From assembly GCA_028704435.1 (NCBI GenBank), contig JAQWFL010000016.1:1-64000 (forward strand): DNA of 64,000 nt. The letters run 5' to 3'. The position numbers and the translations under genes were made by a program. The notes beneath the pieces are model-generated. The model searched no databases. It was not told where the DNA came from and saw only the letters and a program-made list of their open reading frames with translations. This document shows, piece after piece, positions 93 to 17,336 of the stretch. Numbering within the stretch: the stretch's first letter is position 1; each line of letters begins with the position of its first letter. Source of the stretch: Anaerostipes sp. (lineage in GTDB: Bacteria > Bacillota > Clostridia > Lachnospirales > Lachnospiraceae).

Positions 93-322
93 AAAGTTTT
101 GAGTGCGTAAATTTCAGGAAGTTAAGACTAAAATAGAGGATGCTTCTTTTTTCGCTTTTACGTCCAATCTGATTGTATTTTAAGGCTATTATGCCTATAA
201 AAGTAAATTTATTTGTTGGAAATTATACTGTAAGGGCATAGTGACCTTATACAAAATCGACAATAAAGCAATTTGACCGTACAATACAATTTACAGATTC
301 AGAACAGGAGGTGATCAAAGCG

Positions 323-682
323 ATGGGAGCTAATGAAGTAGATTATAAGAAAATCGGTCAAAGAATAAGAGAAAGTCGAAATAAGTATGGCTGGGCACAA
401 TCAGAGCTTGCTTATCGAACGAAGCTTACTCCTTCTCATATGAGCCACATTGAAACAGGACAGACAAAGTTGGCTTTGCCGACTATCGTTAAGATTGCCA
501 ATGCACTATCGGTTTCTGTGGATGAGTTGCTTTATGACAATTTGGAAGAGGTCAAACCAGTATATGATAAGAAAATAGCAGAGGAACTTTCAGATTGCAA
601 TGCTGCAGAGTTAGAGGCATTTTTTGAAATCATTCAGGCAACGAAGAAAGTGATTCGAAAAAACAATGTGAAGACTACTTAA
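323..682 (+). CDS. XRE-family HTH transcriptional regulator
   Basis: IGQRIRESRNKYGWAQSELAYRTKLTPSHMSHIETGQTKLALPTIVKIANALSVSVDELL is a Cro/CI HTH; RBS aggaggtgat upstream of ATG 323 (ORF track starts at GTG 311). Confidence 0.9.
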   Translation: MGANEVDYKKIGQRIRESRNKYGWAQSELAYRTKLTPSHMSHIETGQTKLALPTIVKIANALSVSVDELLYDNLEEVKPVYDKKIAEELSDCNAAELEAFFEIIQATKKVIRKNNVKTT

Positions 683-738
683 TGGAGTGGTTGCATCTGA
701 TATGATGGGAATTTAAATAAAACTTTAATAATGACATT

Positions 739-785
739 AGTCGCAATTCTGTTGGAGCCAGAGTGGGTTTCAACGTGTTGCGGCT
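739..785 (+). terminator. Hairpin followed by T-rich stretch
   Basis: agtcgcaa ... ttgcggct then attttta. Confidence 0.4.
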
Positions 786-826
786 ATTTTTATGTATAAA
801 TGAATTGATAGGAGTGAATACAACAT

Positions 827-2167: not shown

Positions 2168-2188
2168 TAATTGGGTGAAAGTGTATTA

Positions 2189-2296
2189 TAACACCAAGAA
2201 ATTACATTTATAACACTTCCGAAACACCTGAATTTGCTTATATCACTTTCATAACACCGGCATAACACCATCTGTAACACCGTCATAGTATATATT
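2189..2296 (+). promoter_or_regulatory. Phased direct heptamer repeats (taacacc) ending 9 bp before TATATT (-10-like)
   Basis: taacacc/taacact/aaacacc/tatcact at 2189, 2211, 2222, 2241, 2252, 2263, 2275; TATATT 2291-2296. Confidence 0.6.
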
Positions 2297-2383
2297 TTCT
2301 CAAGTAGAATTTTAATCTTTCATTTTTAGAGGCTATGAAACGATTGGTTCTGCAAAAAATAAGTGAACTAAACGGAGGGAATT

Positions 2384-2935
2384 ATGACAGAGAAAGCGTA
2401 TGCTATCAAATCATTTCAGGAAGTGGATGCACGGATGGTGTTGCAAACAGAGGAAGAACTGGATCGACACTTTAAGGATATGAAGCAATTATTAAAGCAT
2501 TATAGTAAGCTTCTTGATGTGAATAAAGCAACGATGCAAGAGTTAGAAGAAGAATGTATGGAGAGTATTAGGGAAGATATGAATTATGCTCTACAATATT
2601 TGAATCAGTATGATTATAGAGTTAATGTTGGATACCTTAAGGGAGAAATACATACGTTTATGGCAATCCACGGTTTGGCGGAGATGATTCATAGGGCATT
2701 GATTTTGATGAGGTATTTTACACCGAAAGGAACATTACATAGTGATATTCTAAAGAGCTGTTATTGCGGTTCTGAGAAGAAAGAACATTTTGATGTACTG
2801 GCAGAACTGGGAATCAGCAGAAGTCTGTTTTATAAAGAGAAGAAGCAGGCACTTAGATTGTTGGGATATTTCTTTTATGAGATTGTTGTTCCACAAGCGA
2901 GAAATAAGAGATTTGCCTGTGCTTTTAAACGATAA
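2384..2935 (+). CDS. Uncharacterized accessory protein; paralogue of 7453..8013
   Basis: Shares TEKAYAIKSFQEV..LQYLNQYDYRxNVG..LGISRSLFYKEKKQALR with ORF 7453; RBS ggaggg. Confidence 0.8.
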   Translation: MTEKAYAIKSFQEVDARMVLQTEEELDRHFKDMKQLLKHYSKLLDVNKATMQELEEECMESIREDMNYALQYLNQYDYRVNVGYLKGEIHTFMAIHGLAEMIHRALILMRYFTPKGTLHSDILKSCYCGSEKKEHFDVLAELGISRSLFYKEKKQALRLLGYFFYEIVVPQARNKRFACAFKR

Positions 2936-3009: not shown

Positions 3010-3708
3010 TTATCCGACCACTTTTCCAAAGATTTTGAAATCTGATTCTTCAGGAATTGCAATAGGGGCATAGTTGGTGTTCAATGAGATCAGGAAGATA
3101 CCTTCGGCGCTCTGTTCAAATTTTTTACAGTATGCCTGCCCATCATAATAGAAGATACCAATCTCACCATTTTCTAAGGTATTCTGTTGATGAATCCAGA
3201 TAGTCTGACCATTCACAAATTGAGGTTCCATACTATCTCCACTGATTCTTACTCCGAAATCTGCATACCTAGATACTTCATGTCCGACTTCAATCTCACG
3301 GAAGTAATCAGAATCCAAAAACTGACCAGTACCAGCAGATACCGGTAAATCATATAATTTAATCGTCCTGTGAAATGGAATGATTTCTGCGGTTTCACGC
3401 ACATATAATCCACTTCGTACTAATAAATCCATATATTCATCAGCTTTGTTCTGTCCATCGTCATTTAGTTTTGAATATAGAGTGTTATCACCGGATATAT
3501 GGAAAGTAGAATTAATATTATTGATGTCTAGTATTTCACAGAGAGCAAAGAACTGAAGCACGTTTGGGAGATTAACATCCTTTTCCCATTTGCTGATAAT
3601 ATATGGTTTTGCATCGTAGCCTTTTCCTGTCAACATTTCTGCAACATCGCCCTGGGATAGATGCTTTTCTTTTCTTTTCTGGGCAAGAATCGGTCCAAAT
3701 GTATTCAT
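3010..3708 (-). CDS. HTH + S24 (LexA/CI-type) autoproteolytic repressor
   Basis: N-terminal HTH (LAQKRKEKHLSQGDVAEML) and S24 motif FGVRISGDSMEPQFVNGQ ... GEIGIFYYDGQAYCKKF; RBS gggaggt before ATG at 3708. Confidence 0.88.
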   Translation of the reverse strand: MNTFGPILAQKRKEKHLSQGDVAEMLTGKGYDAKPYIISKWEKDVNLPNVLQFFALCEILDINNINSTFHISGDNTLYSKLNDDGQNKADEYMDLLVRSGLYVRETAEIIPFHRTIKLYDLPVSAGTGQFLDSDYFREIEVGHEVSRYADFGVRISGDSMEPQFVNGQTIWIHQQNTLENGEIGIFYYDGQAYCKKFEQSAEGIFLISLNTNYAPIAIPEESDFKIFGKVVG

Positions 3709-3752
3709 ACGACCTCCCACAATGATTATTTCTATAAGATATGTCTTTATTC

Positions 3753-5549
3753 GTAACTGTTCAGTACCCCATTAGTCAAAAGTGATTTCTGGGGTACCTG
3801 CTATTGCATTTTGAATTGCTTTGTAAGCATTAATTCCATGCTTTTTTGCAGTTCCTACGTAGGACATAATTGTTAAGTATTCCTGTGCTCCCTCCATACT
3901 ACGGAAGCAACCAGATACCTTGTTTTTCACCTTTATCATTCTGATATCTCGTTCTGCCTGGTTATTATCAAATGGTACACAGAGATTTTTTATAAATAGA
4001 CAGACTGATTCCTTGTAATTATCCAGCCTGTTGATTAAGCATAATACTTTTCCTTTTTTCTTTTTGCCACGTTTTTTTGGGGTGGCTACAGGAAGAGGAT
4101 TTTCTTCATAAGCTTTAAGTATGATTTCATCATACTGTTTATCAAATTTATGAAGATGATAGTAGCTGAGTCCCGTTTTCTCCTCTTCGAAAGCCTTATC
4201 ACGAACTTTTTTCATTGATAAGAGGAGTTTTTTGAACTCTGTCGCCCAGGTCTGCTCTGGATGATTCTGCTCTACTCCATTCAGTTCACGTAGAAGGTGT
4301 GCGCTACAGACTGCATGTGCAAGATTTTCATACTTCCAGTAAGAACTCCAGCAATCATGTACAGTAATTCCATGGTAAAAGGGAAGTATCTTTGCTTCAT
4401 CCATACCTTCCTTGCCACGTTTTTTACTTATGGACAGATGGGTGAAATCAGTATTAGAAGCATTATGGACCCAGATGGTTTTCCCATCTACACGAGTACC
4501 TGTTTCATCACAATGGATTAGCTCAAGGTTAAGCATCTGCTGGCGAATCCATTCCATTGTTCCAGTCAGGGAACTTGCGCAGCGTGATACCATGTTGCTA
4601 ATGGTTCCGGTTGCAAGCGGGATGTTGAATACACTGCCTAGTATCTCATGTGTACGATTGACACTGACAGCACCAACAGTAGTAAATGCAACAACAAGAG
4701 CATTCAGATTAGGACCATACTGGACTGTAGCCTTCACATGTTTTGGAAAACTGCCTTGCTTTTTTCCACCATGGAGAGGGCAATCGACTACAACAACCTG
4801 TTCATGTGCTACTACGTTAACATCAACAACAGCATCTATTACATGACGCGTCTCTTTAATACAAGCATGTTCAAGGCATGTATCGTGATAAGGGCAAGAT
4901 TCACATTCCAGAGCCATATGTTTCTCGACCTGATTTGGATTAGCAATAACTGATAGATTGGTTCCCTTATGTCCAGCTTGACCGCCCTGCTTTTTACCAG
5001 TAGTCTGGCGTAGACTTTGATTCTTGTTAACTGGTGGTTTTTTAAGACCGTCACTTGAAGGCGGTTTGGAACTGTTCTTGGAATTCATTTTGAGCTGCTC
5101 TTGCAGTTTTTTGATGGTCTGATTTAGTTCCTTCACAGTGGAAGTCAACTGCGAAATTTGTTCGGTCATAGAAGCGTTTTGCTCCATAAGATATTTGACA
5201 TAATCCTCTGTGATTGGCATTCAAACCACCTTCTTTCCTTGATTTCTATAGTTATATTTTACCGGAAATCCAAGAAAAAAGCGAATCATTCAAAAGGAGC
5301 ATATAGTGAAAATGACGGTGGGTAACAGTATTCAAGTAATGATTAATGAGACTAAAAACATCCTGTTTTATGGAAGTAATCCACAATCGAAAGTTAAAAG
5401 GTGGAACTATACACCTTTGATTTTTCAATCAGATGGAAGTGGTGGATAACCTTTCTAAAAACCTAAAACTGGTGCTAAAACAGAAAAATTATTTTCTCTG
5501 TTTTGCACAAATATAGTACTTGTTAGATATTAGGGTACTGAACAGTTAC
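3753..5549 (-). mobile_element. Complete IS66-family element (single transposase, no tnpA/tnpB seen)
   Basis: Perfect 17-bp terminal IR gtaactgttcagtaccc (3753-3769) / gggtactgaacagttac (5533-5549); 8-bp TSD ctttattc at 3745-3752 and 5550-5557. Confidence 0.95.
3772..5220 (-). CDS. IS66-family transposase (TnpC-type)
   Basis: Leu-zipper N-terminus, NSKNSSKPPSSDG, GHKGTNL, HCDETGTRVDGKTIWVHNAS, NNQAERDIRMIKVKNKVSGCFRSMEGAQ: hallmark IS66 motifs. Confidence 0.97.
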   Translation of the reverse strand: MPITEDYVKYLMEQNASMTEQISQLTSTVKELNQTIKKLQEQLKMNSKNSSKPPSSDGLKKPPVNKNQSLRQTTGKKQGGQAGHKGTNLSVIANPNQVEKHMALECESCPYHDTCLEHACIKETRHVIDAVVDVNVVAHEQVVVVDCPLHGGKKQGSFPKHVKATVQYGPNLNALVVAFTTVGAVSVNRTHEILGSVFNIPLATGTISNMVSRCASSLTGTMEWIRQQMLNLELIHCDETGTRVDGKTIWVHNASNTDFTHLSISKKRGKEGMDEAKILPFYHGITVHDCWSSYWKYENLAHAVCSAHLLRELNGVEQNHPEQTWATEFKKLLLSMKKVRDKAFEEEKTGLSYYHLHKFDKQYDEIILKAYEENPLPVATPKKRGKKKKGKVLCLINRLDNYKESVCLFIKNLCVPFDNNQAERDIRMIKVKNKVSGCFRSMEGAQEYLTIMSYVGTAKKHGINAYKAIQNAIAGTPEITFD

Positions 5550-5582
5550 CTTTATTCTATATGCAGTGGATAAAAAAGTCAA

Positions 5583-5660
5583 GTGTTTAAAAACAATAAA
5601 ATAGTGTTAAAAACGAAAATATAAATAGAAACACCTTGAAAAAGTGTTAAAGACGATATA
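5583..5660 (+). promoter_or_regulatory. Putative repressor operator cluster upstream of Y-family polymerase
   Basis: gtgtttaaaaac (5583), gtgttaaaaac (5604), gtgttaaagac (5644) plus inverse aacacc (~5630). Confidence 0.5.
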
Positions 5661-5709
5661 TAATAACCGTACACACGATAAGAACAAATGTTTGGAAAGG
5701 GGGAGAAAG

Positions 5710-6957
5710 ATGGATAGAGTGATTTTACATTCAGACTGTAATTGTTTCTATGCAAGTGTTGAAATGCTGCATCATCCAGAACTTGTAGGAAAGCCTGTTG
5801 CTGTAGGTGGTGACCCAGAAGCACGGCATGGAATCGTCCTGACTGCAAATTATATAGCAAAACGACAAGGTGTAAAAACTGGGATGGCATTATGGCAGGC
5901 GAAGCAACAATGTCCGGAGATTGTCTTTCTTCCTCCGAGGATGGATTTATATATCCGATTTTCCAACATGGCTCATGAAATCTATGCAGATTATACGGAC
6001 AAGCAGGAACCATTTGGCATTGATGAGTGCTGGCTGGATTGTACAGAGAGTGCATCATTAAAAGGCGATGGTATGAAGATTGCCCGTGAGATTAGCGATA
6101 GGATAAAATATGAGCTTGGCATTACGGTAAGTATAGGCGTGTCATGGAATAAGATTTTTGCAAAACTAGGTTCTGATTATAAGAAACCAGATGCCATTAC
6201 TTTATTGGACCGTAAGAATTATAAAGAGATTGTGTGGGCACTTCCAGTATCAGATTTGCTGTATGTGGGGCGAAAAACAAAACCGAAATTGCAGAAGATG
6301 GGAATTCATACAATAGGAGATCTGGCTACTTTCCCTTCCAGTATCCTACAGAGTCACCTTGGCAAAATGGGGCTTATCCTCCACGATTTTGCTAATGGGT
6401 ATGATAGCGCTCCTGTAAATAAGGAAGATTATGCAGCTCCTGTTAAATCTATAGGAAACAGCACAACAACATACAGAGATTTAGTGAACGATCAGGATGT
6501 GAAGATTATATTTATGGCACTGGCAGAAAGCGTTTCAGCAAGACTCCGTGACAATGGATTTCTTTGCAATGTAGTAGAGATAACGGTTCGTGACAATGAA
6601 CTGTATCATTTCTCAAAACAGCAAAAACTTTCTCAGGCAACTAATATTACAAGTGAAATTGTAGAAGCTGCATGGAGTCTTTTCAAGGAATCCTACCGAT
6701 GGCAAAAGCCGATTAGGAGTCTTGGCATTCGAGGTGCTGACTTGGTATTGGATGATATTCCAGTACAGCTTGATTTATTCATGAATCAGGAACGCCGTGA
6801 GAAGCAGGAAAAAATTGATAAGGCAGTTGATGAGATACGGAGAAGATTTGGTTATTACAGCATTCAAAGGGCATTTGTATATCAGGACAAAATACTTGCA
6901 AAACTGGATGCAAAGAAGGACCATACTGTGCATCCGCATGGCTTCTTCCACGGATAA
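5710..6957 (+). CDS. Y-family DNA polymerase (DinB/UmuC-like)
   Basis: ILHSDCNCFYASVEMLHHPELVGKPVAVGGDPEARHGIVLTANYIAKRQGVKTGM, FGIDECWLD, TVSIGVSWNKIFAKLGSDYKKPD; RBS ggaaaggggg before ATG 5710. Confidence 0.95.
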   Translation: MDRVILHSDCNCFYASVEMLHHPELVGKPVAVGGDPEARHGIVLTANYIAKRQGVKTGMALWQAKQQCPEIVFLPPRMDLYIRFSNMAHEIYADYTDKQEPFGIDECWLDCTESASLKGDGMKIAREISDRIKYELGITVSIGVSWNKIFAKLGSDYKKPDAITLLDRKNYKEIVWALPVSDLLYVGRKTKPKLQKMGIHTIGDLATFPSSILQSHLGKMGLILHDFANGYDSAPVNKEDYAAPVKSIGNSTTTYRDLVNDQDVKIIFMALAESVSARLRDNGFLCNVVEITVRDNELYHFSKQQKLSQATNITSEIVEAAWSLFKESYRWQKPIRSLGIRGADLVLDDIPVQLDLFMNQERREKQEKIDKAVDEIRRRFGYYSIQRAFVYQDKILAKLDAKKDHTVHPHGFFHG

Positions 6958-7452: not shown

Positions 7453-8013
7453 ATGACAAATAGAGAATATGCGATTAAATCTTTTAAAGAAGTAACGATT
7501 CAAATGATGTCGCAAACAGAAGCGAAGCTGGATTGCCATACAGAGGACATGAAAAGACTTCTGACTTATTACAGTAAATTGGTAATTGAGAACAAACTTG
7601 TTTTGGAAGAACTGGAGCAGGAATGCCAGGAGAAGATAAATGCAGATATGGCATATGCCCTGCAATACTTAAATCAATATGATTATCGGCTGAATGTGGG
7701 GAAGCTGAAAGCGGAAATCAACAATATCATGATGATATATGGATTATCGGATATGATATATCGTGCATTGATTCTCTTGCAGTATTATACACCCAAAGGA
7801 CCGATGCATAGTGAAATTATCAGAGCCTGTTATTGTAGTCAGGTAAAGAAAGACAATATTGAATTGCAAATGGAACTGGGAATTAGCAGGAGCCTGTTCT
7901 ATAAGGAAAAGAAACAAGCATTAAGATGGATGGGATATTTCTTCTATGAGGTTGTGGTAGCACAGGCAAGCAGTGGGAGGTATAAACCATCGTTTGATAT
8001 GAGTGAGGAATAG
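7453..8013 (+). CDS. Uncharacterized accessory protein; paralogue of 2384..2935
   Basis: Strong similarity along full length to ORF 2384. Confidence 0.8.
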   Translation: MTNREYAIKSFKEVTIQMMSQTEAKLDCHTEDMKRLLTYYSKLVIENKLVLEELEQECQEKINADMAYALQYLNQYDYRLNVGKLKAEINNIMMIYGLSDMIYRALILLQYYTPKGPMHSEIIRACYCSQVKKDNIELQMELGISRSLFYKEKKQALRWMGYFFYEVVVAQASSGRYKPSFDMSEE

Positions 8014-13002: not shown

Positions 13003-14061
13003 ATGCCAGCTTCAAGAGATGGTAAGTTGTGGCGTAGCCAGTTCTATTATGAGGACTGGCAGGGAGTACGCCATAAAAAGAACAAAAGGGGCTTCAAGAC
13101 CAAAGGAGAAGCCGAAGAATGGGAAAGGAATTTCCGACAGCAACAGCAGAAAGATTTAGATATCAACTTTGAAAATTTTGTGGAGATTTATTTTGAAGAT
13201 ATGGAAAATCGTCTGCGAGAAAGCACAATTATCAATAAACGATATGTGTTTGATTTGAAAGTAACGCCCTATTTCAAAAATAAGAAAATGTATGAGATTA
13301 AGACTGCAGATGTTAGAGCGTGGCAGAATTTGTTGATGAAAAAGGGCTATGCGCCAACATATCTCAAGAGCATCAATAATCAGTTAGCGGCACTTTTCAA
13401 TTATGCAGTGAAGTATTATGACTTGAGAGATAATCCTTGCAGAAAAGCAGGGAGTATCGGGAAGAGTAGGGCGGATGAAATGGAGTTTTGGACAAAGCAG
13501 GAATTCAAGGAGTTTTTGCCGTCTATGGATGGTAAACCAGAAGCAAGAATGGCGTTTCTCATTTTGTATTGGACAGGCATGAGGATAGGCGAATTGCTGG
13601 CACTCACGTATGAGGACGTTGACTTAGAAAAACGAATAATCACAATTAGCAAGTCATTTCAGCGTATCAAGGGTAAAGATATGGTGACACCGCCTAAGAC
13701 ACCAAAGAGCAACCGTAAAGTGACAATACCATCATTTCTGGTGGAGGAATTAAAGGAATATTGTAGCGTTCTGTATGGTATCACTGCAAAGGAAAGAATG
13801 TTTCGTTTTACAAAATCTTTTATGGAACATGAGATTGTAAGAGGGATAAAGGAAACTGGTGTGAAGCGTATTCGCTTGCATGATCTTAGGCATTCACACG
13901 CTTCATTGCTTGTGGAGATGGGTTTTCAGCCATTGGCAATCGCAGATCGATTGAGGCACGAGAAAATTGAAACAACATTGAGCACTTATTCACATTTATA
14001 CCCAAACAAACAGGCAGAATTGGCAGAACGATTGGAGCTTGCCAATGGAGAGGAGGACTAA
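13003..14061 (+). CDS. int: Tyrosine recombinase/integrase, apparently intact
   Basis: AP2-like N-terminus, TGMRIGELLAL (Arg I), HDLRHSHASLL, RHEKIETTLSTYSHLYP (catalytic Tyr). Confidence 0.95.
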   Translation: MPASRDGKLWRSQFYYEDWQGVRHKKNKRGFKTKGEAEEWERNFRQQQQKDLDINFENFVEIYFEDMENRLRESTIINKRYVFDLKVTPYFKNKKMYEIKTADVRAWQNLLMKKGYAPTYLKSINNQLAALFNYAVKYYDLRDNPCRKAGSIGKSRADEMEFWTKQEFKEFLPSMDGKPEARMAFLILYWTGMRIGELLALTYEDVDLEKRIITISKSFQRIKGKDMVTPPKTPKSNRKVTIPSFLVEELKEYCSVLYGITAKERMFRFTKSFMEHEIVRGIKETGVKRIRLHDLRHSHASLLVEMGFQPLAIADRLRHEKIETTLSTYSHLYPNKQAELAERLELANGEED

Positions 14062-16250: not shown

Positions 16251-17336
16251 GTGTTGCTTATAGCAAGGAATTCGTTTGTTCAGATATCAAAATTGCCAAA
16301 CGTAAAAGGCAGAATTTATTATATATCAAGCCCAGTCCGACAGGAAAATCTGTATGCGGTTTATGAAACCACAGAACGGTCATTTTGGACAGAGTTGGCA
16401 AAATGTAACCAGACAGAATTTACTAAAAGCGGTACAGCGGGGAAGTGCATTGAAGCAAGAGAATTGATTATTGCGTTGCCAGAAAGTTTCGTAGAGTATG
16501 GACCAAAGGCATTACTAAAATTATTTACTGAACATTTCAAACAGAATTATGGAACGGAGTGTATTGCTGCTCTCCATCATAATAAAAGAAAGACCAATTA
16601 TCATATCCATCTTATCTTCTCCGAGCGTAAGCTGTTAGAAATTCCGACTGAGAAAGTGGCTACCAGAAATATGTTCTATGATGAATGTGGTAAGCACGTC
16701 AGAACCAAGAAAGAGATACTTGATGATAGTGGTCAGATTAGAGCAGGGTGCAAAGTTATACCAAAAGGGGAAGTGTATGAAAGAAATTTATTTACAACAA
16801 AGAATAGCAGATTTAAGGGCGAGAAATTTTTAGATGATGTGAAGCATTCCTATACCGATTTAATCAATCTCTATGTGAGGAATGACAAGGAAAAGCTGAA
16901 AGTATTTGATCGAAACGGAGTGTATTTGCCAATGAAAAAGATAGGAAAGAACAATCCAAAGACAGAGCAGATTAAGACGGATAATGAAATGCGTTGTAGA
17001 TGGAATGAAACAGTAGATATGGCACTTGTATGTGGCATACCAGAGCAGAAAATTATGGAAGTGAAGCAGGAGCAAATCTCAAAAAAAGTCAGCCAATCCA
17101 TGCGACTAGCGGGCAAGCGACCAGACCTCTTTGCAGGGATAGTCCAGATGGCGATTACAGCCTTGAAGCTACTCATTAACCGAATCTTCTGTATGGAAGA
17201 ACCGGAGGAAGCTAAGAGCGAAAAAACAGGAGCAAATGCTCCGAAAATCGAAGCCAAAACGGAACAGGCACAGAATACCTGCAGAACAGATGGAAAGTGT
17301 CACAAAGACCGAGCAGAAGCCCCCAGAACGACCTAA
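16251..17336 (+). CDS. Relaxase, MobA/MobL-type
   Basis: KTNYHIHLIFSER (HxH metal motif), N-terminal catalytic region and position after mobC/oriT-like hairpins. Confidence 0.85.
   Translation: MLLIARNSFVQISKLPNVKGRIYYISSPVRQENLYAVYETTERSFWTELAKCNQTEFTKSGTAGKCIEARELIIALPESFVEYGPKALLKLFTEHFKQNYGTECIAALHHNKRKTNYHIHLIFSERKLLEIPTEKVATRNMFYDECGKHVRTKKEILDDSGQIRAGCKVIPKGEVYERNLFTTKNSRFKGEKFLDDVKHSYTDLINLYVRNDKEKLKVFDRNGVYLPMKKIGKNNPKTEQIKTDNEMRCRWNETVDMALVCGIPEQKIMEVKQEQISKKVSQSMRLAGKRPDLFAGIVQMAITALKLLINRIFCMEEPEEAKSEKTGANAPKIEAKTEQAQNTCRTDGKCHKDRAEAPRTT

Follow-up and report, generated by a model that had tools for sequence, protein, structure and literature searches.

The closest described systems are AfsR and the other Streptomyces SARPs (PMC10936776, PMC5930380). 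At AfsR/SARP targets the repeats stand 11 or 22 bp apart, the 3' repeat lies 8 bp from the -10 and the -35 is poor; at this poor -35, AfsR activates by engaging sigma region 4 as a side-by-side dimer (PMC10936776). A second comparable system is DnrS of Thermus thermophilus. The available part of its published description presents an activator with an N-terminal GAF domain and a C-terminal BTAD domain, encoded on a nitrate conjugative element, and proposes that it senses oxygen through GAF (PMC5748679).

We analyzed a locus in a 64-kb stretch of DNA, referred to as the window. Like AfsR and the Streptomyces SARPs, it combines an OmpR-type wHTH with BTAD, a likeness that holds here at family level, and its direct repeats are spaced by 11 or 22 bp and stop ∼8–9 bp before a -10 that lacks a good -35. 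The layout in the window agrees with SARP spacing (9 bp versus 8 bp) when one base is allowed for the repeat boundary. However, wHTH-BTAD is N-terminal in the Streptomyces SARPs, whereas here GAF stands in front of it, and those SARPs belong to actinomycete biosynthetic clusters, whereas this gene sits on a Clostridia mobile element with integrase and relaxase. Further differences are that a single array lies by the regulator's own gene, with a motif that varies by locus, and that the -10 is usually inside a hairpin, although not in the window. Because both the GAF-wHTH-BTAD order and the host are unlike those of a canonical SARP, we call the protein SARP-like. DnrS is likened to it by domains and location only, that is, GAF plus BTAD on a mobile element. 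As far as the available text describes it, DnrS is a large protein, shares an operon with a CRP-type partner, DnrT, and controls respiration genes, and a heptamer array is not part of that text (PMC5748679). Searches of the open-licence literature on BTAD/SARP proteins in Firmicutes, GAF domains and conjugative elements turned up no account of the cassette, which is weak evidence of novelty, and gave DnrS as the sole GAF-BTAD precedent on a mobile element.

Array and activator in the window

The original prediction placed seven taacacc-like heptamers, spaced mostly by one or two 11-bp steps and ending 9 bp before TATATT, between two open reading frames. Direct reading bore out the heptamers, the 9-bp gap (from 2281) and the coordinates of both frames, as follows.

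311..682, + strand: XRE/Cro-CI-type HTH gene upstream of the activator (Pfam HTH_3, E 2e-10; PHROG repressor/regulator families; neighbour clustering)
738..786, + strand: hairpin of terminator type in the leader of the activator gene, TAGTCGCAA...TTGCGGCTA followed by TTTTTATG; 40 nt separate its end from the start codon
827..2167, + strand: SARP-like activator, 446 aa (family-level Pfam, PDB profile match to AfsR, alignment)
2189..2195, + strand: heptamer 1, TAACACC, by direct reading
2211..2217, + strand: heptamer 2, TAACACT, 22 bp from heptamer 1
2222..2228, + strand: heptamer 3, AAACACC, 11-bp step
2241..2247, + strand: heptamer 4, TATCACT, 19-bp step, out of phase
2252..2258, + strand: heptamer 5, TAACACC, 11-bp step
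2263..2269, + strand: heptamer 6, TAACACC, 11-bp step
2275..2281, + strand: heptamer 7, TAACACC, 12-bp step, promoter-proximal copy
2291..2296, + strand: TATATT, -10-like hexamer, 9 bp past heptamer 7 and without a -35 at normal spacing
2384..2935, + strand: first gene after the array, 183 aa, ArpU/DUF1492-like (phage-type late activator relatives; TIGR01637, E 6e-5, below cut-off)

Four of the six steps (22, 11, 19, 11, 11 and 12 bp) are exactly 11 or 22 bp; the out-of-phase 19-bp step and the 12-bp step are irregularities. The array was scored by an unsupervised search that covered 180 nt and linked 7-mers spaced by 11 or 22 (±1) bp into chains, with 200 dinucleotide shuffles as the null. 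The window array scored 10 versus a shuffle mean of 5.9 and maximum of 10 (p ∼0.01); taken alone, it exceeds chance by a modest margin. AACAC pairs 11 bp apart with at most one mismatch occurred 6 times in the 64 kb compared with 3.7 expected, and 3 of the 6 fall within the array. In the 2.88-Mb assembly, the exact pair TAACACN5TAACACC has a single occurrence, at 2252, and matches to the 11-bp pair with at most one mismatch number 5, fewer than for the reversed control (14). These counts give no sign of a wider regulon in the genome, and a sole exact array is what is expected of a local regulator-target pair. An Rfam search of the window found no family.

The predicted domain order of the activator is an N-terminal GAF domain (the first ∼200 residues being GAF-type), a central OmpR-type wHTH (∼residues 208–300) and C-terminal BTAD/TPR-type helices. 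By itself the window protein fell below every Pfam and NCBIfam cut-off, giving only a sub-threshold match to Trans_reg_C (E 0.034). Across 11 aligned family members, BTAD was recognised in 10 (best 3e-12), Trans_reg_C in 8 (best 1e-6) and GAF in 7 (best 4e-6), and the profile of the family alignment matched the AfsR SARP domain in PDB (8hvr, E 1.4e-5). Together, the Pfam and AfsR matches make the domain call correct at family level, and the wHTH and BTAD that had been foreseen behind a GAF-like domain are right at that level, with the window protein alone sub-threshold. An AlphaFold2 model of the activator built from three sequences (pLDDT 47) was too poor for a fold search.

The relatives comprise L005, a MAG contig recorded as a Clostridia bacterium (58% identity), the faecal phage records MT838342 and MT839745 (∼42%) and genes from other genomes within the family and order (27–48%); an identical activator gene is present on contig L004, and the plasmid records searched for relatives gave no close match. 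The GAF-type family is rare in the order, where at E 1e-30 it was found in 3 genomes besides the window's own (n = 392 sampled); in the class it was found at E 1e-30 in the window's own genome only (n = 392 sampled). Hairpins comparable to that in the activator leader end 20–40 nt before the regulator start in L005, G227, G175b, G541, G418, MT838342 and MT839745, which suggests that the activator is expressed through an attenuator, or that the hairpin is the terminator of the preceding gene. The XRE gene is also found upstream of the activator in several relatives.

Arrays 3' of the regulator at related loci

Fifteen loci were oriented and 13 were examined for an array, leaving out G010 (Ns in the region) and G202a (the second of two tandem genes). 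The loci could not be told apart by plain lag-11 autocorrelation, whose signal was too weak, so the phased 7-mer chain score was used instead. A phased array directly 3' of the regulator gene, followed after 9 bp by TANNNT, was found in 13 of 13 loci, a figure that is partly selected because register and -10 were chosen by eye. Thus, the phasing claimed for the window is kept in homologous loci together with the 9-bp gap, and the motif is locus-specific: TAACACC in the window, L005 and MT839745, TAAGACC/TGTGACT in MT838342, AACGAACC in G076, AAATAACC in G227, AAATCAT in G175a, TTAAACC in G175b, GCAAACG in G193, GATGAG in G067, ATATAAC in G541 and AACGAT in G202b.

The shuffle p was 0.005–0.035 in 11 of the 13 loci; the G541 array was borderline (p 0.075), and that of G418 was weak and degenerate (p 0.63). 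All but one of the 13 GAF-family loci had a chain score of 9 or higher, versus never more than 8 for 19 distant wHTH-BTAD relatives without GAF, downstream of which no array was found. When the 13 loci were anchored on the hexamer, A was present at -12 in all of them and C at -11 in 11, and a weaker conserved block recurred 11 bp upstream of these promoter-proximal heptamer positions. Matches to TTGACA at normal spacing averaged 2.5 of 6, the level of random sequence. Since the register had been picked by eye, a locus found after the 13, G1075, is the better test. This single unseen locus carries an 11-bp-phased CGACC-type array, CGCCACT, 9 bp, TAAGAT and a hairpin. The p of the window array is modest on its own; its recurrence in homologous loci is strong evidence and settles that the array is real. 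Comparison of MT839745 with MT838342 revealed closely similar promoter and hairpin regions, whereas most repeats are of the AACAC type in the former and of the AAGAC/GAGA/GTGAC type in the latter. That these repeats have changed together suggests that the operators change in concert with the regulator.

We consider it likely from these comparisons that the SARP-like activator acts on the promoter adjoining its own gene, through the array and TATATT. If the activator instead bound the array mainly for self-regulation, by way of its own leader or transcript, or for repression, the placement of the array just after the gene for the regulator, and the terminator-like hairpin in that gene's leader, would be accounted for; the fixed 9-bp distance to a downstream-pointing -10-like hexamer without a -35 speaks for activation of the downstream unit. 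A gene or leader ORF soon after the array in most loci also fits downstream activation, and a by-eye look upstream of the displayed regulator genes noticed no comparable array, which makes self-regulation unlikely as the main role.

XRE- and S24-type genes occur nearby in the window and in some relatives, and the repeats might be the operator of one of these neighbouring repressors (311–682 or 3010–3720). However, 11-bp direct repeats are not the usual target of Cro/CI-type proteins, which as a rule bind palindromes, G175b keeps its array without an XRE or S24 neighbour as judged by clustering, and the array tracks the GAF-BTAD gene. Its geometry moreover fits that of SARP targets (PMC10936776), and we give a repressor operator a slim chance. 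A p of ∼0.01 for the window array alone would leave some room for a functionless chance or compositional repeat, a reading made very improbable by the same geometry in relatives of 27–58% identity, its lack in the distant relatives and its appearance in the unseen G1075. Helically phased direct repeats beside promoters are also found in plasmid-type centromeres (parC-like 11-bp repeats) and among replication iterons, but either identity is hardly credible here: the neighbours searched included no recognised ParR/ParM or replication initiator, and the repeats end at a fixed distance from the -10 and accompany the regulator family while their motif changes.

The hairpin around the -10

In 12 of 14 loci, the window not among them, the -10 lies within the left arm of a ∼60-nt hairpin, and in 11 of these 12 the stem starts 10–13 nt before the -10, at the end of the last heptamer. 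The hairpin z ranged from -2.9 to -7.7 across 11 loci; in the window region the hairpin is absent (z -1.2), so that it is a property of the family and not of the window. For ten sequences, 92% of the cells of the outer 12-bp stem are paired and 10 pairs are changed on both sides, with a stem covariation of 0.715 compared with at most 0.194 for slid partners. The original prediction thus had the SARP-like array and regulator and missed the hairpin embedded in the promoters of most relatives. Judged by the sequences, this hairpin nested with the -10 would be a new element beyond the known SARP promoter layout, in 12 of 14 loci and not in the window.

A T-run follows many of the hairpins. In most hairpin loci a purine-rich, Shine-Dalgarno-like stretch lies in the right arm and an ORF begins 5–11 nt past the stem. 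For G418 and G1075 this ORF is the XRE gene proper, and in L005, G076, G541, G175a, G193 and G067 it is a short leader ORF with an internal terminator-like hairpin. By computed folding, readthrough RNA could form the hairpin (-13 to -41 kcal/mol), and RNA begun ∼7 nt past the -10 could not (-1 to -9 kcal/mol). We infer that the nested promoter-terminator may hold the downstream operon silent until the activator fires. In most relatives the hairpin could stop transcripts that read through from the activator gene and could also mask the Shine-Dalgarno that comes next; activator-initiated RNA, having no left arm, would alone escape it. The possibility that the hairpin serves as a single-stranded-DNA promoter in conjugative entry was also considered; the T-runs and the Shine-Dalgarno-like right arm make a role in RNA the more likely one.

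The leader ORFs past the array hairpin in L005 (∼5441–5700), G076 (L043), G541 (L041) and G175a (L045) end in a shared RSPP. To judge by eye, the DNA encoding RSPP (CCTCCG/CTCCGCC-type) seems able to pair with CGGAGG, the Shine-Dalgarno of the gene that follows. Leader-peptide attenuation upstream of a recombinase or sigma-like operon is possible in these four loci.

Downstream genes and the proposed switch

The gene at 2384–2935 lies directly downstream of the array, as predicted for its target, whereas the first downstream gene differs between loci. The ArpU-type phage late regulators (TIGR01637, DUF1492) match this target, not the activator, weakly and in its C-terminal part, below cut-off; its product also matches the phrog_248 transcriptional activator (E 4e-4). 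A paralogue 61% identical to it lies at 7453–8013, and only 2384–2935 follows the array. The first downstream gene belongs to the ArpU-like cluster in the window and G175b and is sigma-region-4-like in G067 and G175a. Post-promoter genes in L005, G076 and G541 include XRE, a PemK-type toxin, a small DUF6870-type ORF and large serine recombinases (from clustering, and from Pfam on L005). G227 (L044) has no sense gene close after the promoter and an S24-type repressor gene on the opposite strand; its array promoter could give an antisense or long leader RNA.

The Rfam pemK RNA (RF02913) lies downstream of the cassette at L036:2612–2676, L005:6314–6406 and L006:426–522 (minus); it was found in L005, G076 and MT839745, loci that also hold PemK-type toxin genes. 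In the window, an inverted repeat, GAGACATCATCC...GGATGATTGTCTC, with a T-run at 2953–2998, 3' of gene 2384, was seen by eye and missed by a short-loop scan; it is likely a terminator. A transposase-like ORF (3772–5220, minus), presumably resembling IS66, lies between the S24 repressor gene and a Y-family polymerase-like gene (5644–6957), and the counterparts of these S24 and polymerase genes adjoin in G227. Three more genes of the window bear on its context.

3010–3720: S24-type repressor gene
13003–14061: tyrosine integrase
16251–17336: MobA/MobL relaxase

The presence of an integrase and a relaxase in this region makes it probable that the cassette belongs to an integrative mobilizable or conjugative element, and the operon content is read most economically if the array promoter controls induction of the element. 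In the proposed mechanism, the activator would sense a signal through its GAF domain, and its wHTH-BTAD part would bind the heptamers just 3' of the activator gene, placing a protomer on each helical turn. It would then recruit RNA polymerase to the TATATT -10 (2291–2296) in the SARP manner, the promoter-proximal repeats standing in for the -35 and the activator serving as the docking point for sigma region 4. Expression of 2384, and probably of other genes on the integrative element, would be switched on in this way. A broader proposal, to which we give an even chance, is a family of Clostridia mobile-element switches, each with a SARP-like activator, a promoter nested in a terminator-like, Shine-Dalgarno-sequestering hairpin and a heptamer co-evolved with its regulator, of which the window has kept the array and lost the hairpin.

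SARP-type promoter logic, in which repeats on successive helical turns replace the -35, has been described for actinomycetes; here it appears as a compact cassette on Clostridia mobile elements. Since each regulator has its own heptamer beside it, the sequence alone allows operator specificity to be deduced, which opens the way to testing for a wHTH recognition code. If the heptamers have indeed co-evolved, they would offer a natural set of matched regulator-operator pairs, and the nested promoter-hairpin, if borne out, would be a simple way to insulate the induction operon of a mobile element from readthrough. The GAF domain points to some signal that may act, in gut bacteria, as the switch for genes of excision or transfer. 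With distant relatives each carrying its own version of the layout, the cassette looks like a self-contained, evolving genetic switch.
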